The translations under genes and the position numbers were made by a program. Below are positions 4,717 to 54,690 of a DNA stretch of 64,000 bases, piece by piece; the stretch's first letter is position 1; the number at the start of each line of letters is the position of its first letter. The notes below the pieces were generated by a model. It had not been told where the DNA came from. It did no database searches and was given only the letters and a program-made list of their open reading frames with translations. Source of the DNA: Melioribacteraceae bacterium (GTDB taxonomy: Bacteria; Bacteroidota; Ignavibacteria; Ignavibacteriales; Melioribacteraceae); the NCBI GenBank assembly GCA_022181065.1, contig BQMY01000078.1:62001-126000 (forward strand). Reading direction: 5' to 3'.

Positions 4717-6201
4717 ATCAGCGATCTGGTAATTCTAATTCTGGCCGATATTATTATTGCACTCACTGCTGTTGCAACGGAATTGGCGATTGTCAAAGGT
4801 GAGGTGAATAAAGAAGTTATGAGAAAATTACTTCATTTTGTAGCCATTACTGTTTCTGCTGTCGTGCCCCTTCTTTTAAGTACATATATATTTCTCAAAC
4901 TTATTACATTAATTTCCGCGATACTGGTTGTTATTTCCGTAAGTTCCGGTACCCTTGATTCAATTCGGAAAGATGATGACAAAAGTTGGGGAATACTCTA
5001 TTTTGCGCTTTTTTATACTGTCTCTGTGTTTATTCTACCACCGGGTTTTTTTCCATATCTTGCTGTGGGCTTGTTGATTTTAGCGGTATCTGATTCATTA
5101 GCGGCTTTATCAGGAAGTTCTACAAAAAAAATGAAATACATTCTGACCGTTGAAAAATCATATCTCGGTTCATTTATATTTTTTGTCTCTTCATTTATAA
5201 TTTCATGGTTATTTCCGGTCTATTTTTCGGAATTATTCGGTCTGGAATCTTTCGACCAATCGTATTTGTTGATTTTCGCTTTTGTTGTCTCTGTTCTTTT
5301 AACTTTGATTGAAGCTTTATCCACAAAAGGAATAGATAACCTGCTCATCCCTCTTTTCGGTACGATTCTCTCCGTAATTTTCCTTGGGGCACAAAATGAT
5401 GAACTTCTGCAAATGTTTGTTCCAGGCTTGTTTCTTGCCGGTGTTATAGCGTTTATTTCCTATAAAGTATCATTTTTAACAGCAAATGGCTCTATCTCAA
5501 CCTTCATACTCGCCGGACTTATTTTTGGGCTGGGAGGATGGAAGTGGAGTTTACCTATTATGACATTTTTCGTTTTGTCCAGTCTTTTATCGAAAGTCAG
5601 GAAAAAGAAAAATGCTGTAGTAGAAAGTTATTTTGAGAAAACCGGGACAAGAGATTTCGGACAGGTATTCGCTAACGGAGGAGTGGGTGGCGTACTTGTT
5701 ATTGTAAATGCCCTCTTCCCGAATGATATTTGGTATTTTGCGTATATTGCTTCATTGGCAGCCGTAACGGCGGACACATGGGCTACGGAAACAGGAACTT
5801 TAAAGAAAAACAAGACATATAACATTCTTAACTTCAAACCGCTTCCGCAGGGTATGTCAGGTGGTATATCAGTAGCTGGAACTACAGGTGGAATAATCGG
5901 AGCGATTATAGTCACCGCTTCCGGTTTTTACTGGTTTGAAAACTCGGTTTGGTTAGTAAGTTCTCTTTTGGTGATCGCAGGAGTATTTGGGAGTTTTGTT
6001 GACAGTTATCTCGGTGCCACATTACAAGTGCAGTATAATTGCAAAGTTTGTGGGAAAATTACCGAAAACAAATATCATTGTGGCGCAAACTCGGATATCT
6101 TCCGGGGCAACAAAGCCGTTAATAACGATTTGGTAAACTTGATCGCCGGAGTATTTGGTAGTTTATTTTTTATCCTGATATGGGGTCTTATACAATTATG
6201 A
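4717..6201 (+). CDS. Phytol/dolichol kinase-like domain fused to DUF92 (VTE6/TMEM19-like) domain
   Basis: Polytopic membrane protein with two domains. The N-terminal half (to about residue 230) looks like the phytol/dolichol kinase family: VMRKLLHF near the start, then SDSLAALSGS and a KSYLGS motif. The C-terminal half is DUF92, with RDFGQVFANGG, TADTWATETG and MSGGIS motifs. In plants these families are VTE5 (phytol kinase) and VTE6 (phytyl-phosphate kinase), successive steps from a prenol to its diphosphate, so a polyprenol salvage role is inferred. The first canonical in-frame start is TTG 4783, but clear membrane-helix coding continues upstream with no ATG, GTG or TTG. An ATC at 4717, 7 nt after AGGT, would give a sensible start. 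The stop overlaps the next gene by 4 nt (ATGA). Confidence 0.8.
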   Translation: MSDLVILILADIIIALTAVATELAIVKGEVNKEVMRKLLHFVAITVSAVVPLLLSTYIFLKLITLISAILVVISVSSGTLDSIRKDDDKSWGILYFALFYTVSVFILPPGFFPYLAVGLLILAVSDSLAALSGSSTKKMKYILTVEKSYLGSFIFFVSSFIISWLFPVYFSELFGLESFDQSYLLIFAFVVSVLLTLIEALSTKGIDNLLIPLFGTILSVIFLGAQNDELLQMFVPGLFLAGVIAFISYKVSFLTANGSISTFILAGLIFGLGGWKWSLPIMTFFVLSSLLSKVRKKKNAVVESYFEKTGTRDFGQVFANGGVGGVLVIVNALFPNDIWYFAYIASLAAVTADTWATETGTLKKNKTYNILNFKPLPQGMSGGISVAGTTGGIIGAIIVTASGFYWFENSVWLVSSLLVIAGVFGSFVDSYLGATLQVQYNCKVCGKITENKYHCGANSDIFRGNKAVNNDLVNLIAGVFGSLFFILIWGLIQL

Positions 6202-9164
6202 GGTTTGTGTTTTTACTGATTTTTTTAATTGCGGGATTTTTATCTGCTCAACATGTTCCCGAAGAGTATTACGACGCGATGGAAGATTTTCACCGTGAAA
6301 ATTATATGGCTGCATATGAGAAATTTTCCCGTATCGAAAATGAAATGGATATCGACGAATCATTTGTCGCGACAGCTCGTTTTTACGCCGGTGAAAGTTT
6401 ATATAAGCTGGAGGAACTTGATGGTGCTGCCGGAAAACTAGAAGAATTTATTGATAGATTCCCAAATTCGAATTTTCACGATTTTGCCCTCTACCGGCTC
6501 GGACAGATATATTTTGAAAAAAAATTGTACCTGAATTCCAGGACGAAGTTATATTCCCTGATTGCAGAACACCCTGAATCGGAATATATCTGGTCTGCAA
6601 AATATTGGATTGGTGAATCGTTCCTGCGTGAAGAAAAGTATTATGAAGCAGAGGAACATTTGCTCGAAGCTGTTTCGGGCAGACGGAATAACAGGGTAAT
6701 TGATTATACCATTTATTCTCTCGGCATTTTGTACGAAAATATCGGTGACTACACCTCAGCGGTTACTTACTACGACGAACTTCTGGCATATTACAGAGAG
6801 AGTCCGTTGATTCCGGAAGCGCAGTTTAGAATAGGAATCAGTTACTTCAAACTGAAAGAATATGATAATGCTGTACTTGAGTTATCCGATCCTCTGATAA
6901 TTTCACTTCCCCAGAAAAAACAGGCTGAAGCACAATTTATTCTGGCGAACTCATTTTTCCGGCTGAAAGATTATGAAAACGCTTCAAAAATATATAGCGA
7001 AATTTTAACCAATTATCCTCAGAATGAGGAGAATAATGACATTTGGTTCGGACTGGCATGGGTGAATTTTCAACTTGGTGAGTATGACAAGGCTTACGAG
7101 ATTTTTGATAAACTATCAAACTCTAAAGACCCTGAAATTGCCGCAAAAGCTTTTTTCAGAGCGGGTGAAGCCAAACGATATTCAGGCGACACTGAATTCG
7201 CTCTCGGAATTTATGAAGAGTTTTTACAAAAATATCCCGATAGCGAACTGGTTCCGACTGTAAGATTCAAGATCGGTGTTATCTACTACAACAAAGGTGA
7301 AATTTCTGTCGCGGAAAGATATCTGATCACTTCCCTTAAAGACGGGGATGGCGCGGGAAAATCCAGTGCATTCAGTTTACTTGGTGAAATAAGTCTGAAC
7401 AACGAAGACTTCCGAAGCGCGGAGAATTATTTCAAGAATGCATTGGAAAATAAGGAAATTCCTGATGCTGAGAGATTCAGAGCAAAACTGGGACTTGGAG
7501 TTACGTTATATTCTATCGGTGACTATGATGGTACAATTAAAAACCTGAATGAAATCCGGATAAAGAATAATCGGTTCGAAAAGGAGAAGATAAACTTCTA
7601 CCTCGCCGAGGCTTATTTTGAGAAAAAAGATTACTCCAACTCTGTAAAACATTTCAGTAGAGTTAATGTTGATGACGCTCAGCTTGGTTCCCTGGCGCTT
7701 TATGGCAGGGCATATTCTCTCTTTAATCTTAAAAGTTATGCCGATGCTGTTTATTACTTCACCGAGTTTATTTCCAGAAATCCGAAAGACCAGAGAGTTC
7801 TTGATGCCCGGTTAAGACTAGCGGATAGCTATTACGGTACGAAAAACTTTAATCGAGCTGCGGAAATATATAATACCGCCTTCAGGGATAATGGAAATCT
7901 TTTTGAAGATGATTACTCATATTTCCAGTATGGGCAGACTCTTTTTAAATCGGGAAATAATAATTCCGCTATAAATATTCTTAAAAGTTTACAAAACAGA
8001 TTTCCCCGATCAAGATATATTGATGATAGTCAGTACCTTATTGGATGGATCCATTTCCAGTCAGGTGAGTACCAAAACGCAATTACAGAGTACAAAAAGA
8101 TAATAGCTGATTTCCCGGGTACACCGTTACTGCCTGTTACTTTCTACTCAATAGGAGATGGATATTATAATATCTCTGAATATGATTCGGCAAATGTTTA
8201 TTACGAAAAGATTCTTGAGCAATTTCCGGCAACCGAGTATGTATTCGACGCTATAAATGGATTGCAGTACTCCTGTATAGCCTCTGATAACGTTGAAAAA
8301 GCCATTGCTGTGATTGACCGTTTTATCTCCGATTTTCCTGCAAACGAGCTTGGTGATAAAATATTGTTCAAAAAAGGTGAAACCTATTTTAATGTCGGGC
8401 AGTACGACAAAGCTATTACAGGGTACAGAGAACTTATCGCTACATATCCCGAAAGCGAGCTGGTACCCGATGCGTATTACAGAATCGCAAAAAGCGCTCA
8501 AAATATGGGCAAGGAAGAGAACGCGATTTATAATTACAAGCTGGTTATTGACAATTACATATACACAGAAAGCGGAATAAGCGCAATTACAGAACTTGGC
8601 GCAATTTTTTCGGAACGTGAAGAATATGATTATGTGATAGAACTTTATAACAGGATTGTTAACGAAGTACCCGATTCCAAACGATTGCCGGAAATTATAT
8701 TCCTTCGCGGGGTTGCCGAGAAAAATAATAATATGCTTCCGGAAGCATATGAGTCTTTTAATTATATCAATACTTATTACGCTGAGAACCTTTTCTCCGA
8801 TAAGGCAAAAATTGAACTTGGTATTATGGAGCTTGAGAGAAAAAGTTTTGAAAACGCTGAAATGTTGTTCGGTGAGGTAGGTACAGGAAGAACGGATGAC
8901 CTCGGCGCGAAAGCACAATATTATTATGGATTAACATTGTATGAACAAGGTAAAATAACAGACGCCATCACTGCACTGGTAAGAGTTCGATCTGTCTTTC
9001 CAATTTACGATGAATGGTATAGTAAATCATTGATAAAACTGGGTGACTGCTACGTGAAATTGAAAGATAAAAAGCAGGCGAGAGATATGTATCGCGCAGT
9101 TGCCATAAAACATAATAATGACGAATTAGGTAAAGAAGCCAAACAGAAATTGAACCGACTATGA
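6198..9164 (+). CDS. Large secreted TPR-repeat protein of the envelope cluster
   Basis: 988-residue protein made almost entirely of tetratricopeptide repeats of the YbgF/BamD style, with about 25 units marked by repeated Y..A(x)5F..(L/I)...P patterns (for example LIAEHPESEYIWSAKYWIGE and ITEYKKIIADFPGTP). A signal peptide covers residues 1-18 (ending LSAQ). Start: ATG 6198 overlaps the stop of the preceding gene as ATGA; an in-frame ATG at 6180 lacks the signal-peptide logic. The stop likewise overlaps the following barrel gene as ATGA. Such long TPR proteins act as periplasmic scaffolds; with TolQ/TolR/TonB-like genes close downstream, a role linking inner-membrane energy to the outer membrane is plausible but not shown. 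Confidence 0.85.
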   Translation: MRFVFLLIFLIAGFLSAQHVPEEYYDAMEDFHRENYMAAYEKFSRIENEMDIDESFVATARFYAGESLYKLEELDGAAGKLEEFIDRFPNSNFHDFALYRLGQIYFEKKLYLNSRTKLYSLIAEHPESEYIWSAKYWIGESFLREEKYYEAEEHLLEAVSGRRNNRVIDYTIYSLGILYENIGDYTSAVTYYDELLAYYRESPLIPEAQFRIGISYFKLKEYDNAVLELSDPLIISLPQKKQAEAQFILANSFFRLKDYENASKIYSEILTNYPQNEENNDIWFGLAWVNFQLGEYDKAYEIFDKLSNSKDPEIAAKAFFRAGEAKRYSGDTEFALGIYEEFLQKYPDSELVPTVRFKIGVIYYNKGEISVAERYLITSLKDGDGAGKSSAFSLLGEISLNNEDFRSAENYFKNALENKEIPDAERFRAKLGLGVTLYSIGDYDGTIKNLNEIRIKNNRFEKEKINFYLAEAYFEKKDYSNSVKHFSRVNVDDAQLGSLALYGRAYSLFNLKSYADAVYYFTEFISRNPKDQRVLDARLRLADSYYGTKNFNRAAEIYNTAFRDNGNLFEDDYSYFQYGQTLFKSGNNNSAINILKSLQNRFPRSRYIDDSQYLIGWIHFQSGEYQNAITEYKKIIADFPGTPLLPVTFYSIGDGYYNISEYDSANVYYEKILEQFPATEYVFDAINGLQYSCIASDNVEKAIAVIDRFISDFPANELGDKILFKKGETYFNVGQYDKAITGYRELIATYPESELVPDAYYRIAKSAQNMGKEENAIYNYKLVIDNYIYTESGISAITELGAIFSEREEYDYVIELYNRIVNEVPDSKRLPEIIFLRGVAEKNNNMLPEAYESFNYINTYYAENLFSDKAKIELGIMELERKSFENAEMLFGEVGTGRTDDLGAKAQYYYGLTLYEQGKITDAITALVRVRSVFPIYDEWYSKSLIKLGDCYVKLKDKKQARDMYRAVAIKHNNDELGKEAKQKLNRL

Positions 9165-33562: not shown

Positions 33563-33674
33563 GAACTTGTCTAAATTTCTTAAAATTTAACATTTTTTAA
33601 CAATTCAGAGGTGAAACTTTTCACTCCTGATGTTGTAAAATTGCAGAGTTAATAAAATAAACGTGAGGCTGAGA

Positions 33675-34658
33675 TTGGAAATTACAGAACTGAATGAAAA
33701 GATAAAACGTGAGAGCGGGTTCATAGAAGTTCTTACTAATGAACTTGGGAAAGTGATAGTCGGACAAAAAGAAATGGTTGATCGACTCGTAATTGGTTTG
33801 CTTGCCAATGGTCATGTTCTGCTGGAAGGTGTTCCGGGCCTGGCGAAAACGCTCGCAATTAAATCACTTGCTTCCGCAATGAAAGCAAAATTCCAGAGAA
33901 TTCAGTTTACTCCCGACTTGCTCCCTGCCGACTTGATTGGTACAATGATCTATAATCAGAAAGATGGGAACTTCACCATTAAAAAAGGTCCGGTTTTCGC
34001 GAACTTTATTCTTGCTGACGAGATCAACCGAGCTCCCGCAAAAGTTCAGTCAGCCTTGCTCGAAGCTATGCAGGAACGTCAGGTTACTATAGGCGAAGAG
34101 ACATTTAAACTCGAAGAGCCCTTCCTAGTGCTTGCTACTCAGAATCCTATCGAACAGGAAGGTACTTATCCGCTTCCCGAAGCACAGGTTGACAGGTTTA
34201 TGCTGAAGGTTAAAATATCGTATCCTTCACGCGACGAAGAATTAAAAATAATGAAGCAGAATGTGGAAAAAACCACCGGTACAGTTTCCCCGGTAGTTGA
34301 TCCTACGGAAATACTCAACGCAAGAAAACTTATCCATGAAGTTTATGTTGACGAAAAGATTGAAAAATATATTCTCGATATAGTATTTGCTACTCGTGAA
34401 CCACGCGAATACGGACTTGGCAACCTCGCTGATCTTATCAGTTATGGCGGATCACCCCGCGCAACCATTAACCTCGCGCTTGGTGCCAGAGCAATGGCAT
34501 TCATGAAACGACGCGGTTATGTAATTCCTGAAGATGTACGCGGGATTTGTATGGATGTATTGCGTCACAGGATAGCCGTTACTTATGAAGCCGAAGCGGA
34601 AGACATTACATCTGAAAATATCATCACTGAAATCCTTAACAGAGTTGAAGTACCTTAA
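33675..34658 (+). CDS. moxR: MoxR-family AAA+ ATPase
   Basis: About 327-residue AAA+ ATPase. Walker A is GVPGLAKT, Walker B is LADEINRAP, followed by LLEAMQERQVTIG and the TQNPIEQEGTYPLPEAQ sensor region; the C-terminal lid has GGSPRATINLALGARA. MoxR ATPases act as chaperones with DUF58 and VWA partners. The start is probably TTG 33675, because GTGAGG (33663-33668) is its ribosome-binding site; the upstream GTG lies in that site. It leads the bat operon. Confidence 0.93.
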   Translation: MEITELNEKIKRESGFIEVLTNELGKVIVGQKEMVDRLVIGLLANGHVLLEGVPGLAKTLAIKSLASAMKAKFQRIQFTPDLLPADLIGTMIYNQKDGNFTIKKGPVFANFILADEINRAPAKVQSALLEAMQERQVTIGEETFKLEEPFLVLATQNPIEQEGTYPLPEAQVDRFMLKVKISYPSRDEELKIMKQNVEKTTGTVSPVVDPTEILNARKLIHEVYVDEKIEKYILDIVFATREPREYGLGNLADLISYGGSPRATINLALGARAMAFMKRRGYVIPEDVRGICMDVLRHRIAVTYEAEAEDITSENIITEILNRVEVP

Positions 34659-34676
34659 TAGAGATATCCGGTTAAG

Positions 34677-35552
34677 ATGATTACAAAAGAACTGTTAAAA
34701 CAGGTAAAACAAATTGAGATTAAAACTCGCGGACTCGTAAACGAAGTCTTTTCGGGGGAATACCACTCTGCTTTCAAGGGTCGGGGAATGGAGTTCTCGG
34801 AAGTACGCGAGTATCAGCCGGGTGATGATATCAGAACAATCGACTGGAACGTAACCGCGAGGTTCGGGCATCCATTTGTGAAAATTTTCGAAGAGGAACG
34901 TGAACTTACAGTAATGCTTCTGATAGATATGAGTGGCTCTCTTATTTTTGGTTCCGAAGAAAAAACCAAACAGCAGGTTGCAGCGGAACTGAGCGCAATC
35001 CTCGCGTTTTCGGCTATGAAAAATAATGATAAGGTCGGGCTGATATTGTTTACAGATCAAATCGAAAAATTCGTTCCTCCAAGAAAAGGACGCAGTCACG
35101 GTTTACGGTTAATTCGTGAAATCCTTTCATTCGAACCGAGAGGTAATAACACGAATATCAAAGGTGCGTTGGAATATTTTAATCATGCTATCAAAAGGAA
35201 ATCGATTGCTTTCCTTATTACTGATTTTCTGGATGAAGGCTATGAAAAAATAATCAAGATTGTCGGCAAAAAGCACGATCTCGTTGCTCTAGCCCTCGAA
35301 GATCAGAGAGAGATGGAATTACCTCAGTTCGGATTAATAAAATTCCGGGATGCTGAAACAGGACAAATTCGCTATCTCGATACATCGAGTAAAAATGTAC
35401 AAAACTGGATTGAACGGGTAGTTAGCGACAGAAATGAAAAATTACGTTCCCTCTTCCTTTCAGGTGGTATCGATGCTATAAGGATAAAAACAGGGGCTTC
35501 ATACACTAAACCATTGATTGACTTTTTCAAACTGCGCGAAAAAAGATGGTAA
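34677..35552 (+). CDS. DUF58 domain protein of the bat operon
   Basis: 291-residue protein with the DUF58 signature GRGMEFSEVREYQPGDDIRTIDWNV near residues 35-60, followed by a VWA-like fold with the metal-site motif DMSGS and a later LITDFLDE. DUF58 proteins are encoded with MoxR ATPases and VWA proteins across bacteria; the MoxR partner is thought to act on them. It overlaps the next gene by 7 nt. Confidence 0.92.
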   Translation: MITKELLKQVKQIEIKTRGLVNEVFSGEYHSAFKGRGMEFSEVREYQPGDDIRTIDWNVTARFGHPFVKIFEEERELTVMLLIDMSGSLIFGSEEKTKQQVAAELSAILAFSAMKNNDKVGLILFTDQIEKFVPPRKGRSHGLRLIREILSFEPRGNNTNIKGALEYFNHAIKRKSIAFLITDFLDEGYEKIIKIVGKKHDLVALALEDQREMELPQFGLIKFRDAETGQIRYLDTSSKNVQNWIERVVSDRNEKLRSLFLSGGIDAIRIKTGASYTKPLIDFFKLREKRW

Positions 35553-36493
35553 AACAATTTTTATATATAATATTATTACTCGGACTTTTATCCGGTATTT
35601 CATTCGCTCAGGGTGAGATCAAAGTTAAAGCTTATACTGATAGTGTCGATTTTCTTATTGGTGATATAATCAAATATACCATCGAAGTTGCTCGTAAAGA
35701 AGAAGTAAAGGTTATTTCTCCAATTCTCGCGGATAGCCTTACAGAACTTGAACTTCAAAGAATGGATATGGGAAGGTTGACAAAAAAAGGTGATTTGGTC
35801 AGTCAGGAATATATCTACTATCTCATGGGTTTTGATTCAACAGATGTAACTCTCGGACCTTTCCCTGTTGAATATTATTCCGCCGATTCTTCTGACAAAA
35901 AAGTAGTATATACCGATCCCGTTTATATTGTTGTTCGTACTATGGATGTTGACCCGGAAGGTGAAATTCAGGATGTAAAAGCACCGGTAACGATTCCATT
36001 TAATTTTATTATTGTCCTGCTCATTATTGTGGCTGTCATCATTTTAGCGGTCATCGGATATTTTATTTACCACTATTACAAGAAAACACAGAGTGTTGAT
36101 GGGACGGTGAAACAAAAAATAGCCATTCCACCTCATAAGGAGGCGCTTCAGCTTTTACGTAAACTTGAGGAAGAAAAGTTGTGGCAGCAAGGTGAAATTA
36201 AAGAATATCATTCAAGAATAACATTTATCATACGCGATTATATAGAAAAGCGGTTCAGTATTCCGGCAATGGAAGTTACATCCTCCGAATTACTCGACAT
36301 GTTAAAACATAAAACAGAATTTCAAAGTATTTACGATAAATTGAGTGATTTCCTGAGTAACGCCGATATGGTGAAGTTCGCCAAGTTTGAACCAATGCCA
36401 AGCGTAAATGAAGAAATGATGCAGCAATCTTACGAATTTGTAAATTCAACCAAACCGGCAGAAGTAACTCCGGAGGTTAAGAATGCTGACTAA
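35546..36493 (+). CDS. bat-operon membrane protein of unknown function
   Basis: 315 residues: signal peptide 1-21 (ending SFAQ), a periplasmic beta-rich domain (about 22-150; IKVKAYTDSVDFLIGDIIKY), one transmembrane helix at about 153-176, and a cytoplasmic helical tail (ALQLLRKLEEEKLWQQG ... YIEKRFSIPAMEVTSSELL). The tail resembles that of BatD (NALNGYLEDKLNISRSEFS), so the two may be distant relatives. Layout is similar to DUF4381-type proteins of related operons. It overlaps DUF58 by 7 nt and batA by 11 nt. Confidence 0.75.
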   Translation: MVKQFLYIILLLGLLSGISFAQGEIKVKAYTDSVDFLIGDIIKYTIEVARKEEVKVISPILADSLTELELQRMDMGRLTKKGDLVSQEYIYYLMGFDSTDVTLGPFPVEYYSADSSDKKVVYTDPVYIVVRTMDVDPEGEIQDVKAPVTIPFNFIIVLLIIVAVIILAVIGYFIYHYYKKTQSVDGTVKQKIAIPPHKEALQLLRKLEEEKLWQQGEIKEYHSRITFIIRDYIEKRFSIPAMEVTSSELLDMLKHKTEFQSIYDKLSDFLSNADMVKFAKFEPMPSVNEEMMQQSYEFVNSTKPAEVTPEVKNAD

Positions 36494-37478
36494 CGTTAGT
36501 TTTGCATATGGCTGGATGTTCTGGTTTATGCTGCTTATACCTCTGTTGGTATTCAGGTATATAAGAGCATTCAACAAGCAAACTCCGGATATCACTTTTT
36601 CGAGCCTGAAGATTTTTGAAGGATTAAAACCAGGATTAAAGGAAAGATTACGACATTTACCTTTTATACTTCGTATGCTCGCATTAACGTTAATGATTGT
36701 TGCTCTTGCCCGTCCGCAAACTTTTTCGACCGGCGAAAATGTTTACACAGAAGGTATTGATGTAGCTATGCTTCTCGATATATCCGGTAGTATGCTTGCG
36801 GAAGATTTTAAACCAAACAGACTTGACGCGGCAAAAGATGAAATTGAAAAATTTATCGCGGGGAGAACCACCGATAAAATTGGTCTTGTTATCTTCGCGA
36901 AAGAGAGTTTTACACAATGCCCGCTTACAATTGATTATCAAGTGCTAAAAAATCTGCTGGGTGATATTGAGAGCGGGATGCTCGAAGACGGCACGGCAAT
37001 CGGTAACGCGATAGCGAATGGTGTCAACCGACTAAAGGACAGTGACGCTAAAAGCAAGGTGATCATCCTGCTGACTGATGGTGAAAATAACGCCGGTGAG
37101 ATAGACCCGATTACCGCCGCTCAAATAGCTAAAGAATTTGGTATTAGAATATACGCTATTGGTGTGGGAAGTAACGGAACAGCGCCTTACCCTGTTAAAA
37201 CACCTTTTGGTACACGTTATCAGCAGGTTCCTGTCAAGATTGATGAAGAGACTTTGACGGAAATATCAAACATCACCGATGGGAAATATTACCGAGCAAC
37301 CAGTAATAAAAAACTTGAAGATATCTATAAGGAAATTGACGAGTTGGAAAAAACCAGAGTTGAAATAACATCTTATCGGCAGGCGAAAGAGTTATTCTAT
37401 AACTGGGTAGCGGCTGCTCTCTTTTTACTCTTGCTTGAACTTATCCTTGTAAAAACCTGGTTGAGGAGAATACCATAA
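36483..37478 (+). CDS. batA: VWA-domain membrane protein BatA
   Basis: 331-residue protein with two N-terminal membrane helices (about 8-25 and 58-75), a von Willebrand factor A domain (about 88-285) and a C-terminal membrane helix (about 305-325). The MIDAS motif is DISGSM, with ILLTDGENNAG later. In Bacteroides the bat genes were first linked to aerotolerance, and in other species to stress tolerance; the molecular role remains unclear. It is 4 bp before batB. Confidence 0.92.
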   Translation: MLTNVSFAYGWMFWFMLLIPLLVFRYIRAFNKQTPDITFSSLKIFEGLKPGLKERLRHLPFILRMLALTLMIVALARPQTFSTGENVYTEGIDVAMLLDISGSMLAEDFKPNRLDAAKDEIEKFIAGRTTDKIGLVIFAKESFTQCPLTIDYQVLKNLLGDIESGMLEDGTAIGNAIANGVNRLKDSDAKSKVIILLTDGENNAGEIDPITAAQIAKEFGIRIYAIGVGSNGTAPYPVKTPFGTRYQQVPVKIDEETLTEISNITDGKYYRATSNKKLEDIYKEIDELEKTRVEITSYRQAKELFYNWVAAALFLLLLELILVKTWLRRIP

Positions 37479-37482
37479 TATT

Positions 37483-38514
37483 ATGTTTCGATTTGCTCAC
37501 ATAGAATATCTCAACTTGTTATATCTGATCCCGGTTCTGGCTGTATTGATATGGTATGCCAATACGCGTCAGGTAAAACTTATGAATCGTTTTGCTAATA
37601 AGGCATTGCACAAGGTTTTATCACCATTCCGGAGTACCACCAAACTTTGGACAAAATCCGTCCTGACATTGATGACGGTTACTCTGCTAATATTTGCGTT
37701 GGCAAATCCTCAGGTAGGCGCAAAAATTGAGGAAGTTAAGCAGGTTGGTATAGATGTTTTTATTATCCTTGATGTTTCACTCAGTATGACAGCTGAGGAT
37801 ATAAAACCAAGCAGACTGGAAAAAGCTAAATTTGAAATATCCAAACTGATTAACCGACTTCGTGGAGATAGAATTGGATTGATTGTATTTTCAGGGAACG
37901 CGTATGTTCAGTTTCCGTTAACCACGGATTACGCTGCTGCAAACTTGTTCCTATCAGCGGTGGATGTTAGTTCAGTACCGCAGCCGGGAACTGCTATTGG
38001 TCCGGCTCTGCAGCTTGCGATGAGCTCTTTTCCTGAAGAGAGTCAGGCAAAGCGGGCAATGGTTGTAATCACTGATGGAGAAGACCACGAAGGTGATCTT
38101 AACGCGGTGATTCAGGATGCTAACGAAAAAGAAATTGCGATTTACGCGATAGGGCTTGGTTCTCCTTCCGGTGTCCCGATCCCCTTGTATTCTGCATCAG
38201 GTCAGCAAAAAGGATACAAAAAAGACCGACAGGGTAATGTAGTTCTTACCAAACTTGATGAAACTACCTTGCAGGAATTAACACGCCAGGGTAATGGATC
38301 GTATTATCGTGCCACGAACAGTTCTGATGAACTTGAAAAAATATATAATGATCTTTCAAGGATTGAAGAAACTGAATATGGGGCTACACGCGTTACTGAA
38401 TATGAGGACAGATATTACTGGTTTTTGATTCCCGCTTTTTTAATTTTATTGTCGGAAACATTAATTTCGTCAAGAAAAAGCAGGTTTTTCGTAAAATTGG
38501 AAAACAGACAATAA
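37483..38514 (+). CDS. batB: VWA-domain membrane protein BatB
   Basis: 343-residue paralogue of BatA with the same plan: two N-terminal helices, VWA domain with the metal-site motif DVSLSM and MVVITDGEDHEGD, and a C-terminal membrane helix (WFLIPAFLILLSETLIS). Tandem VWA genes are the hallmark of the bat operon, and the two proteins probably form a hetero-complex in the inner membrane with BatC-E. Seven base pairs separate it from batC. Confidence 0.92.
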   Translation: MFRFAHIEYLNLLYLIPVLAVLIWYANTRQVKLMNRFANKALHKVLSPFRSTTKLWTKSVLTLMTVTLLIFALANPQVGAKIEEVKQVGIDVFIILDVSLSMTAEDIKPSRLEKAKFEISKLINRLRGDRIGLIVFSGNAYVQFPLTTDYAAANLFLSAVDVSSVPQPGTAIGPALQLAMSSFPEESQAKRAMVVITDGEDHEGDLNAVIQDANEKEIAIYAIGLGSPSGVPIPLYSASGQQKGYKKDRQGNVVLTKLDETTLQELTRQGNGSYYRATNSSDELEKIYNDLSRIEETEYGATRVTEYEDRYYWFLIPAFLILLSETLISSRKSRFFVKLENRQ

Positions 38515-38521
38515 ATACATT

Positions 38522-39304
38522 ATGAAAAAATATATAATCATATTACTCCTGCTCACAGGAATCATGAATGCTCAAAGTTTGAGAAGTCATGTTAATGAAG
38601 GGGTTGAAAAGTATAAAAACGAGAATTTCGCAGATGCTGAAGTAAATTTCAGGAAAGGCCTGGAAGAAAACCTTGAAAGTTTTGAGGCTAATTTTAATCT
38701 TGGTGACGCTTTATACAAACAAGGCAGATATGAAGACGCGCTGAAACAATTCAAAAATTCAATGGCATTTGCAAAAGATGATTACTTAAAGTCGAAAGTA
38801 TTTCATAATATTGGAAATACACTGTTGAAATCTCAAAAACTTGATGAAAGTATTGAGGCTTATAAACAAGCACTAAAAAAAGATCCTTCTGATCTGGAAA
38901 CCAAATATAACCTGTCGTACGCGTTGCAGATGAAAAAGCAACAGGAACAGCAGCAACAAAATCAGGATCAGAACCAGGATCAGAATCAGGATAAAAATCA
39001 ACAGAATAAAGACCAACAGCAGAATCAGGATAAGCAAAACAAAGATCAGGATAAGCAGGATCAACAAAATCAGCAGGACCAAAATAAAGATCAGAAGCAA
39101 GACCAGCAAAACCAGGACCAGAATAAACAGGATCAAAAAGATCAACAGCAGAATCAGCAGCAACAAAAACAGCAGCAGCCTCAGAAAATATCGAAAGAGG
39201 AGGCACAGCGTATTTTGGAAGCGATGAAAAATAATGAAGCTGATCTGCAGAAAGAATTGAGAAAGAGGAAAGCTAAAGTTGTACCAAAAGCGAAAGATTG
39301 GTAA
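38522..39304 (+). CDS. batC: TPR protein BatC with a Gln/Asp/Asn/Lys repeat tract
   Basis: 260-residue exported protein: signal peptide 1-18 (ending MNAQ), three TPR units (about 20-135; EGVEKYKNENFADAEVNF, GDALYKQGRYEDALKQF, QKLDESIEAYKQALKKDP), a low-complexity tract of about 85 residues made almost only of Q, D, N and K (about 140-220), then a short charged helix (EEAQRILEAMKNNEADLQKE). The tract, with many N-Q-D-type repeats, is typical of BatC and is likely disordered. The tail helix is the conserved BatC end. It could tether the TPR to peptidoglycan or to BatB; not known. Confidence 0.88.
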   Translation: MKKYIIILLLLTGIMNAQSLRSHVNEGVEKYKNENFADAEVNFRKGLEENLESFEANFNLGDALYKQGRYEDALKQFKNSMAFAKDDYLKSKVFHNIGNTLLKSQKLDESIEAYKQALKKDPSDLETKYNLSYALQMKKQQEQQQQNQDQNQDQNQDKNQQNKDQQQNQDKQNKDQDKQDQQNQQDQNKDQKQDQQNQDQNKQDQKDQQQNQQQQKQQQPQKISKEEAQRILEAMKNNEADLQKELRKRKAKVVPKAKDW

Positions 39305-39319
39305 AAGCAGGATACTAAA

Positions 39320-41146
39320 TTGAATAAAACTTTATTTAACATATTGTTTCTGTTTATTTTACCCGTAGTTATCTATTCACAGCAGTTTAACGTAACCGCT
39401 GACAAAACGACGGTTGGTGAGAACGAACGATTTCAGGTTTATTTTACGTTTGAAGGCGGGGATGTAAACTCGGTGAGTAACTTCCGCGCACCAGATATTG
39501 CTGGACTTAAAGTGCTTGGCGGACCAAATCAATCCACCAACATGCAGATAGTTAATGGTCGCATGTCAGGATCAGTAACTTATTCTTATATATTACAAAC
39601 TGTGAATCAGGGCGTTTTTACAATTGGAGAGGCATATGTTGATTTTCAGGGAAAACGATATAACACAAACCCGATAAAAATTCAGGTAGTTAAAAGTGGT
39701 ACTCCTACTCCTCAAGGCAGCAAAACAGGCGGAATTTCAGATGAAGAGCTTGCCAAAAAAGTATTTATTCTTGCGACTACCGATAAAAAGAATGTTTTTT
39801 TGGGAGAACAGGTAACTGTAGAATTCAAGCTCTATACAAAAACCAACATCTCAAATCCAACTGCATCCAAAGCACCAACCTATAATGGTTTTTGGGTAGA
39901 GAAGCTGAATTTTGATAATGAGCGCAACTGGCGTATTGAAATGTATCAGGGTGAACGATATCGTGTTGCCACTCTCGATAAAGTTGCGTTGTTCCCGTCA
40001 AAATCAGGTAAACTTGAAATCACTCCTTACGAACTGGATGTACCGGTGATCATTCAGCGCAGAAACAGAAGCAGGGATTTGTTTGATGATTTCTTCAACG
40101 ATTCCTTTTTCGGACGATCACAAACCATCAATTTTAGGGCAAAATCTAACGGTATTACTATAAATGTGAAACAACTGCCGGAAGCAGACAAGCCGGAATC
40201 TTTTAACGGTGCTGTTGGTAACTTCCGATTTAATTCCTCGATTGACAAGAATGAAGTAGAAGTGAATGAGCCTGTTACACTCAAAATAAATATCTCGGGT
40301 GCTGGAAATATAAGTCTGCTGGAATTACCAAAACCGGAATTGCCGGCAGGCTTTGAAGTTTATGATCCTAAAACTTCAGAAAATGTTTCTAGAAATAACA
40401 GAATTACCGGCACAAAAAATATTGAATATCTTATTGTACCTCGACTACCCGGAGAGAAATTCATCCCATCGTTCGAATTTGCATATTTTGACCCACAGAC
40501 TAAAAAATACCACACGTTCGCTACCGAGCGATATGAAATTAAAGTAAACCCCGGACAGGGGATCGACTATTCAGCAGGAAACACCGGATTTAGCAAAGCT
40601 GATGTTAAACTGCTCAATCAGGACATCAGATTTATAAAAACATCCGATTATAATCTGCAGAGAATAAGTGATAACAGAATTCTGGGACTCTGGTTCTGGG
40701 TTGGACTTGTAATTCCGATATTTGGTTTGTTCGGGTTTGTTATGATCAAAAAACGTCAGGATAAACTGGCTGGCAATGTTGAACTGGTGAAGTTCCGTAA
40801 AGCTGAAAAAGCCGCAAGGAACAGATTAAAACTTGCCAAAAAAGAACTTGATGCGGGAAATAAATCTGGGTTTTATGATGAAATATCGAATGCGTTGAAC
40901 GGATATCTTGAGGACAAACTGAATATCAGCAGATCAGAATTCAGTATCGATAAAGCAATCGGACAAATAACCGAGACGGGAATTGAAAATGAACTCGCAC
41001 TAAATGTCAAGGATGTCTTCGATAAATGTGAATTTGCCCGGTTCGCGCCAAAAGTAGAAGGTTTTGAGGCAGAAACAGAACTTTATGATACTACGGTAAA
41101 CATAATTGTAAAATTGGAAAATGAACTTGGCAGAAAAAGAAAATGA
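39320..41146 (+). CDS. batD: BatD (oxygen-tolerance-type) membrane protein
   Basis: 608-residue protein with signal peptide 1-20 (ending VIYSQ), tandem Ig-like beta-sandwiches (VTADKTTVGENERFQVYFTF, then a second repeat near residue 310 with NKNEVEVNEPVTLKINISG-type sequence), one transmembrane helix at about 453-475, and a cytoplasmic helical domain (NALNGYLEDKLNISRSEF). It matches BatD of the aerotolerance operon. The start is TTG 39320. Its stop overlaps batE by 4 nt (ATGA). Confidence 0.9.
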   Translation: MNKTLFNILFLFILPVVIYSQQFNVTADKTTVGENERFQVYFTFEGGDVNSVSNFRAPDIAGLKVLGGPNQSTNMQIVNGRMSGSVTYSYILQTVNQGVFTIGEAYVDFQGKRYNTNPIKIQVVKSGTPTPQGSKTGGISDEELAKKVFILATTDKKNVFLGEQVTVEFKLYTKTNISNPTASKAPTYNGFWVEKLNFDNERNWRIEMYQGERYRVATLDKVALFPSKSGKLEITPYELDVPVIIQRRNRSRDLFDDFFNDSFFGRSQTINFRAKSNGITINVKQLPEADKPESFNGAVGNFRFNSSIDKNEVEVNEPVTLKINISGAGNISLLELPKPELPAGFEVYDPKTSENVSRNNRITGTKNIEYLIVPRLPGEKFIPSFEFAYFDPQTKKYHTFATERYEIKVNPGQGIDYSAGNTGFSKADVKLLNQDIRFIKTSDYNLQRISDNRILGLWFWVGLVIPIFGLFGFVMIKKRQDKLAGNVELVKFRKAEKAARNRLKLAKKELDAGNKSGFYDEISNALNGYLEDKLNISRSEFSIDKAIGQITETGIENELALNVKDVFDKCEFARFAPKVEGFEAETELYDTTVNIIVKLENELGRKRK

Positions 41147-41895
41147 TTAAACATCTTATTTTTGCGCTTTTTATTAGTCTGGTAGCTATTCTTTCAGCTC
41201 AACCTGAAACACTGCTTAGGGAGGGGAATGAACTTTATAAAGCTGAGGACTATAGTGGCGCGTTAAATAAATACTCTGCCGTGCTAAACGAAGGTTTTGA
41301 GAGTCCGGTTTTATACTTCAATTTGGGAAATGCGCATTTCCGTAGTGGTAACCTGGGTGAAGCAATTTTATTTTATGAAAAAGGTCTTAAACTATCACCC
41401 GGTGATGAAGATATTGAATATAATCTGGCGATAGCAAAAGCCAGAACCGTTGATAAAATAGAGGAGATTCCCCAAATATTTCTTGTTGAATGGTGGGACA
41501 CACTCCTTGCGTCTTTTTCTGTATCTACCTGGGGCATATTCTTGTTACTCTGGTTTGTATTGTTTACCATTGCTGTCGCTATATTTATCACAGCCAAATC
41601 TGGTGTTTTACAGCGTATCGGGTTTTGGAGCGGAGCCGTATTTTTATCATTCACAATTATAGTTGGTCTCTTTCTGTTTGCAGATTATACACGAGAAACT
41701 TCGAGGATTGAGGGAGTTCTGCTATCAGAGGTTGTCTCTGTGAAAGTTTCACCAGACAAAAATAGCAACGATGCGTTTATACTCCACGAAGGTGTGAAAT
41801 TCAGAATTGAAGATAATGTTGGCGACTGGTCAAGAATTAAACTTTCCGATGGCAAAGTTGGCTGGGTGAACAAAACCACTTACGAGATTATATAA
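41143..41895 (+). CDS. batE: BatE: TPR, membrane and SH3-like domains
   Basis: 250 residues: signal peptide (ending LSAQ), two to three TPR units (about 20-100; GNELYKAEDYSGALNKY, GNLGEAILFYEKGL), two transmembrane helices (about 127-150 and 160-182), and a C-terminal bacterial SH3 domain (about 195-250) ending in DWSRIKLSDGKVGWVNKTTYEI, of the type that binds peptidoglycan or protein partners. It closes the bat operon and overlaps a convergent gene by 8 nt at its 3' end. Confidence 0.9.
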   Translation: MIKHLIFALFISLVAILSAQPETLLREGNELYKAEDYSGALNKYSAVLNEGFESPVLYFNLGNAHFRSGNLGEAILFYEKGLKLSPGDEDIEYNLAIAKARTVDKIEEIPQIFLVEWWDTLLASFSVSTWGIFLLLWFVLFTIAVAIFITAKSGVLQRIGFWSGAVFLSFTIIVGLFLFADYTRETSRIEGVLLSEVVSVKVSPDKNSNDAFILHEGVKFRIEDNVGDWSRIKLSDGKVGWVNKTTYEII

Positions 41896-53865: not shown

Positions 53866-54690
53866 TTGCAAAGCAGATTAACAGAAAAAGATAAGCTTAA
53901 AATCAACGAGTTCCTTGATTACGGCGGAGATATCCCAAACCATGTTGCCATGATTATGGACGGTAACGGGAGATGGGCTAAAAAACGCGGCCTGCCCAGA
54001 GTTGAAGGGCACCGACGCGGAGTTGAAACCGTTAGGGAAATTGTTGAAACTTGTGCGCTGCTTGGTGTTAAATATCTTACCATTTATACATTCTCCACCG
54101 AAAACTGGAAACGCCCCAAGGATGAAGTAAGCACGCTTATGAGACTGATTGTAAGAAGTCTTCAGAGTGAAACAAATGAACTTCATTCAAATAATGTAAG
54201 GCTTACCACAATCGGTGACACTTCAATGCTTCCTGATATCGTGCGTAAAGAACTTTGTACCGCGATGGAAAAAACCGCAAACAACACTAAACTTACTCTT
54301 AATCTTGCGCTTAGTTACAGCGGCAGGTGGGAGATACTTGAAGCTGTTAAAGGGATTTCCGAGAAAGTAAAAAATGGTGAGCTAGACATCGAACAAATAG
54401 ATGAAAAATTATTTTCGGGGTATTTATCAACCAGTGAAATTCCCGATCCCGATCTCCTCATTCGAAGCGGCGGCGAGTATAGAATTAGTAATTTCCTTTT
54501 GTGGCAAATTGCGTATTCTGAATTGTATGTTACAAATGTTTTATGGCCAGAGTTCAGGTATAAAGATATGTTGCTCGCGATTGAGGATTTTCAGGGCAGG
54601 GAAAGAAGGTTTGGGTTAGTTAGTGAACAATTGCAGAATAAACGTAAAAAAATTCAGAATGTTAAAAAACTTTCAAATCAGATCGCTTAG
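53866..54690 (+). CDS. uppS: Isoprenyl transferase / undecaprenyl diphosphate synthase
   Basis: 274-residue cis-prenyltransferase that builds undecaprenyl diphosphate, the lipid carrier for peptidoglycan and O-antigen precursors. Conserved blocks: HVAMIMDGNGRWAKKRG with catalytic Asp32, RVEGHRRG, YLTIYTFSTENWKRP, SYSGRWEILEA and the closing LIRSGGEYRISNFLLWQIAYSELY. The start is TTG 53866 with weak spacing, so a slightly different start is possible. It overlaps the downstream bamA by 32 nt. Confidence 0.95.
   Translation: MQSRLTEKDKLKINEFLDYGGDIPNHVAMIMDGNGRWAKKRGLPRVEGHRRGVETVREIVETCALLGVKYLTIYTFSTENWKRPKDEVSTLMRLIVRSLQSETNELHSNNVRLTTIGDTSMLPDIVRKELCTAMEKTANNTKLTLNLALSYSGRWEILEAVKGISEKVKNGELDIEQIDEKLFSGYLSTSEIPDPDLLIRSGGEYRISNFLLWQIAYSELYVTNVLWPEFRYKDMLLAIEDFQGRERRFGLVSEQLQNKRKKIQNVKKLSNQIA

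Follow-up and report, generated by a model that had tools for sequence, protein, structure and literature searches.

A fused VTE5-like and DUF92 membrane protein of Ignavibacteria and green sulfur bacteria, a probable two-step prenol kinase

Background

Few genes are known for prenol salvage: in a 2022 review, the enzymes listed are all from plants or cyanobacteria, among them VTE6, the phytyl-phosphate kinase that corresponds to COG1836 (PMC9782597), and an apicomplexan prenol kinase was added in 2024 (PMC10849223). The latter, PfPolK of Plasmodium, is a kinase that uses CTP on farnesol and geranylgeraniol, as assayed in yeast extract, and for which an Arg29/Lys30/His33 clamp has been described (PMC10849223). 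A fusion of a Sec59-like domain with COG1836 was reported by Makarova et al. in 2015 for the Mbar_A3310 protein of Methanosarcina barkeri, and an isoprenoid step requiring kinase activity was suggested for it (PMC5898192). In the same work, HHpred placed both COG1836 and its N-terminal partner in the cytidylyltransferase superfamily (PMC5898192). The domain architecture analyzed here is thus not new, having been published for this archaeal fusion.

The present locus lies in a 64,000-nucleotide stretch of Melioribacteraceae DNA, which as a whole is called the window. Its features are collected in Table 1, where residues are counted from position 4717.

Table 1. Features of the fusion locus and of the related stand-alone gene in the window genome
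Feature	Position	Strand	Remarks
Whole fusion	4717..6201	+	494 aa from ATC codon; integral membrane protein, putative N-half kinase and DUF92 kinase
Probable non-canonical start ATC	4717..4719	+	AGG shortly upstream; no in-frame ATG/GTG/TTG before 4783
N-half, multi-helix membrane domain, COG0170/phytol-kinase-like	4717..5391	+	hhalign to paralog A; own model
R36-K37-x-x-H40 clamp motif (RKLLH)	4822..4836	+	R36, H40 invariant in 58 fused proteins
D126-x-x-A129-x-x-x-G133 (DSLAALSG)	5092..5115	+	D126, A129, G133 invariant
K147-S-x-x-G151-S152 (KSYLGS)	5155..5172	+	K147, G151 invariant; S152 at least 90%
E199...D207-N208...P212 (EALSTKGIDNLLIP)	5311..5352	+	invariant in 58 fused proteins
C-half, DUF92/COG1836 (VTE6-family) domain	5437..6159	+	PF01940, residues 241-481
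D353-T-W-A-T-E358-x-G360 (DTWATETG)	5773..5796	+	D353, T354, W355, T357, E358, G360 invariant, 63 sequences
D429-S430, second conserved acidic site of DUF92	6001..6006	+	invariant, 63 sequences
C442-x-x-C445...H454-C455, possible metal site, last loop	6040..6081	+	invariant in 18 Ignavibacterial sequences
Large TPR protein	6180..9164	+	ORF and TPR/YbgF/BamD-type repeats; neighbour of the fusion, participation only putative
Type A kinase-like paralog, stand-alone, phytol-kinase-like	L032:6414-7094		window genome, contig C122

Domain organization and conserved residues

The fusion frame is uninterrupted up to its stop codon at 6199-6201. Fused frames with ~30-50% identity to the window protein are present in many relatives, so the fusion is neither a chance nor an assembly product. 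The C-half matches PF01940 with 203.3 bits (cut-off 27.5; E 5.4e-60; profile positions 3-250 of 251), and the genome search gave 1.1e-60; the same model also matches the control genome Synechococcus elongatus. TIGR00297, a narrower subfamily model within DUF92, gave 115.2 bits for the window protein, below its cut-off of 205.85, and other fused and stand-alone relatives were equally under it (108-119 bits). The DUF92 acidic residues D353, E358, D429 and D471 are invariant over 63 sequences and all occur in the window protein. The cysteines and histidine of the last loop are absent from the invariant list over these 63 sequences.

The N-half (residues 1-225) is homologous to the phytol/farnesol/dolichol-kinase family (COG0170), a link that runs through Pfam/COG and stand-alone paralogs and not through proven enzymes. 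A Pfam search of the N-half alone returned no match, PF01148 (CTP_transf_1) included. In contrast to this search, hhalign connected it to two types of stand-alone COG0170-like kinases of related genomes, type A (probability 99.4, E 9e-22) and type B (probability 98.7, E 2e-16), both of which the window genome also encodes. Since paralog B itself scores under the PF01148 gathering cut-off (E 1.7e-4 to 1.3e-3), this model is insensitive here. In an alignment of 58 fused proteins (the window protein and 57 others), which were picked for at least three of four motifs so that invariance partly owes to that choice, 12 N-half positions are invariant: R36, H40, G92, D126, A129, G133, K147, G151, E199, D207, N208 and P212. 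The window protein retains all 12. An unselected 63-row alignment shows R36, H40, D126, K147, G151, E199, D207 and N208 at 90% or above, and the spacing of R36, K37 and H40 matches the PfPolK clamp. The initial annotation, which had read the two halves as VTE5-type and VTE6/DUF92 domains, is borne out for both, with its quoted motifs in place. It had also named missing family residues as the finding that would speak against a kinase fusion; on sequence evidence, both halves retain them.

The AlphaFold model of the whole chain, built with 63 sequences, has a pLDDT of 94.0 and a pTM of 0.92, and that of the N-half alone has a pLDDT of 92.1. Foldseek returned no significant solved relative for the whole-chain and N-half models, and none was found by sequence. 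With the second-look aligner VIA, the best match of the N-half was CdsA (Z 7.3, 112 residues, 3.4 A), which also aligned to residues 327-494 (Z 5.2, 131 residues, 3.8 A), both Z values being under the safe level for helical proteins. The N-half profile aligns weakly on the C-half profile, with SDSLAALSG over ADTWATETG and D126 over D353, in agreement with the published HHpred superfamily result (PMC5898192). We read the protein as a putative duplication of one CdsA-type fold.

Start codon and gene borders

No ATG, GTG or TTG lies ahead of the first membrane helix in the window frame or in that of one relative, L012. The first canonical-type start in the window frame is TTG 4783, and starting there removes this helix. 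Because an upstream peptide, ISDL...TAVATE, is kept in both sequences, translation probably begins at ATC 4717 in the window and at ATT or ATC in L012. Most other Ignavibacterial fusions have TTG or GTG as the sole start choice ahead of the first helix, and ATG starts were counted in 49 of 69 sequences overall. The TTG/GTG-only starts of many Ignavibacterial fusions hint at weak initiation of the fusion gene. At the other border, the start of the large TPR gene (ATG 6198 or 6180) overlaps the fusion stop codon, in agreement with the initial annotation, which had the two genes co-translated, and the TPR gene stays beside DUF92 in most Ignavibacterial relatives.

Distribution and history of the fusion

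Named matches to the fused form come from Melioribacteraceae, Ignavibacteriaceae, Kryptonia, Calditrichota, KSB1, Neomarinimicrobiota (Fidelibacterota) and Chlorobiota. One two-genus family, whose loci share 83% protein identity with Chlorobaculum parvum and 63-70% with Chlorobium and which was on these values taken as Chlorobiaceae, carries fused-length open frames (435-594 aa) in every one of the 41 genomes examined. New are the reach of this old fusion, which takes in Ignavibacteria, Kryptonia, Calditrichota, KSB1 and Marinimicrobia, and its presence in all these Chlorobiaceae genomes. Of 148 genomes drawn evenly from the phylum, 94 have DUF92, in frames that are either long (~490-600 aa) or short (~240-320 aa). 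Among 58 close relatives, the fusion is intact in 15, while four retain the N-half at full length but lack its motifs, 12 have DUF92 only or with a stump, one is cut by a contig end and 26 are without DUF92.

In a DUF92 tree of 110 rows with a midpoint root, intact fusions stand on both sides of the root, and the rows without the N-half imply five or more changes on branches with good support. We read this as an old fusion whose first kinase would have been repeatedly lost or eroded while DUF92 persisted. A recent joining of the N-half to DUF92 was rejected, as the intact fusion occurs tree-wide and the losses are scattered inside. A split gene in the DUF92-only relatives was rejected as well, with no adjacent N-half frame at the 11 loci checked. 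Repeated loss of the N-half while DUF92 stays argues that obligatory channelling is not the rule of the family, and the persistence of DUF92 without it in many relatives indicates that the two steps are separable. Four full-length fusions (L010, L014, L018 and L030) keep the N-half as an open membrane-domain frame but have lost the kinase motifs.

Gene neighbourhood and stand-alone paralogs

The Ignavibacterial gene order is TPR, fusion, large TPR, outer-membrane protein, SPOR protein, exbB, exbD and tonB. Chlorobiaceae have the fusion ahead of tolQ-tolR-tonB-pal-TPR, and Kryptonia have it after exbB-exbD-tonB. The KSB1 fusion adjoins an enolase-like gene and DUF502, and neighbours in other lineages are holA, kdsA, kdsD and lptC. 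The Ton/Tol link is taken as an old neighbourhood and not as evidence for carrier-lipid recycling. Elsewhere in the window, a uppS-like gene (53866-54690), 48 kb away from the fusion, precedes bamA-like and lpx-type genes, and no direct link between it and the fusion was seen. The window also holds a MoxR/BatA/BatB/TPR/BatD-like operon (33663-41895), an arrangement common among Bacteroidota-type genomes.

Type B, a dolichol-kinase-like protein of 220-240 aa, is encoded by a separate gene in nearly every genome. Type A was found in 11 of the 58 relatives and never without DUF92 (11/32 with DUF92 versus 0/26 without); this co-occurrence was set aside as an association, as the differing independent pairs all agree in direction but are too few. 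In the window genome, the type A gene adjoins a FadL channel, a GDSL lipase and a SPOR lipoprotein (L032:3141-7094). In the fetched genomes it is often accompanied by a FadL-type outer-membrane channel and a SPOR lipoprotein, and a GDSL-lipase-like gene is present in five of nine. With such a gene set, external lipid esters could be taken up and cleaved and the freed alcohol then phosphorylated, and the cluster may serve to import isoprenoid or fatty-alcohol esters from outside.

Geranylgeranyl reductase (TIGR02032) was considered as a partner of the fusion, an intact N-half being found in none of the 11 relatives without the reductase and in 15 of the 47 with it (Fisher p 0.05). This candidate was dropped, as a CdsA tree placed the losses mostly in one clade and left too few independent pairs. 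UbiA copy number showed no significant difference (p 0.10).

Functional interpretation

Both halves show family homology and retain the invariant residues, the modelled fold is compact and confident, and the fusion is of old descent; the protein is probably a bifunctional membrane enzyme of prenol salvage that joins a prenol kinase and a prenyl-phosphate kinase in one chain. The N-half, of the VTE5/FOLK/PfPolK kind, would use CTP to phosphorylate the hydroxyl of a free isoprenoid alcohol in the range of farnesol, geranylgeraniol or phytol, giving a prenyl phosphate. The DUF92 half, of the VTE6 kind, would convert this monophosphate to the prenyl diphosphate, which could then serve prenyltransferases. 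We infer catalysis, the CTP donor, the order of the steps, substrate length and any gain from fusion, with donor and chemistry drawn from VTE5, PfPolK and VTE6. Counting against this reading are the low Z values of the CdsA matches, the absence of a clean association with geranylgeranyl reductase or UbiA, and the many relatives in which DUF92 stands without the N-half. The initial suggestion that the substrate need not be phytol fits the distribution, most of the relatives found being from non-phototrophic groups.

A rather unlikely alternative is the one favoured initially, carrier-lipid recycling at the envelope, in which the fusion would put phosphate back on long-chain undecaprenol or polyprenol set free at the inner membrane. 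It draws what weak support it has from gene neighbours: the Ton/Tol association does recur, with exbB/exbD/tonB or tolQ/tolR/pal beside the fusion in Ignavibacteria, Chlorobiaceae and Kryptonia, a kdsA-kdsD-lptC run is found elsewhere, and in archaea COG1836 has been published in the context of uppS (PMC5898192). The envelope setting does not carry over to KSB1, Calditrichota and Marinimicrobia, however, where the neighbours differ. Moreover, 26 of the 58 close relatives manage without DUF92, and nearly every genome has its separate dolichol-kinase-like protein.

The losses of the N-half bear on another reading, that DUF92 alone is catalytic and the N-half is a relic or a membrane or regulatory module, with the monophosphate supplied by another kinase. 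Several losses or erosions while DUF92 stays would agree with it, as would a stand-alone type A kinase in three of the four relatives that are full-length but eroded in the N-half. We nevertheless regard it as distinctly unlikely: the window N-half retains every invariant residue, and 73 of the 110 tree rows, a count that includes duplicates, have at least three of the four motifs. Resemblance of both halves to members of the CdsA/CTP_transf_1 superfamily (PMC5898192) would also allow one or both to be cytidylyltransferases that make a CDP-activated lipid instead of phosphotransferases. This is highly unlikely, given that kinases are the closest characterised relatives of both halves and that nearly every relative has its own strong CdsA-type PF01148 gene.

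Under the two-step prenol kinase reading, the green sulfur bacteria offer a specific role. In Chlorobaculum tepidum, many alcohols supplied by feeding end up in BChl c (PMC7242693). Chlorophyll synthase requires diphosphates and leaves the free alcohol unused in E. coli extracts, where a kinase is missing (PMC9066304). On these two observations, the fusion is the likeliest candidate for activating fed or recycled alcohols on their way into bacteriochlorophyll in this group. Somewhat short of probable is the fuller proposal that it would supply the diphosphates to BchK, ChlG and BchG while the non-phototrophic relatives salvage environmental prenols. A literature search, with subscription journals mostly outside its coverage, found no named alcohol-activating gene for green sulfur bacteria. 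With both steps in one gene in every Chlorobiaceae genome checked, the pathway would become accessible in the naturally transformable C. tepidum. If the reading is correct, erosion of the first kinase alone would show a two-step salvage enzyme decaying to a one-step enzyme, and the many relatives that have lost the first domain would form a comparison set for which step limits.

Comparison with known systems

The C-terminal domain of CdsA, the CDP-diglyceride synthetase (4q2e/4q2g), aligns to both catalytic halves at 3.4-3.8 A but with ~13% identity and a weak Z, and the reaction of CdsA is different. The phytol kinase VTE5, the farnesol kinase FOLK and PfPolK have the multi-helix membrane architecture of the N-half, and the RKxxH spacing is that of PfPolK; unlike the window fusion, all three are single-domain proteins. 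VTE6 (COG1836, PF01940) is stand-alone in plants and cyanobacteria, and the window C-half is a clear member of PF01940, yet below the TIGR00297 cut-off. Mbar_A3310 differs from the window protein in being archaeal, and the two may share an origin or be independent fusions. By its published description, it has the same domain order, both families and the conserved aspartates.
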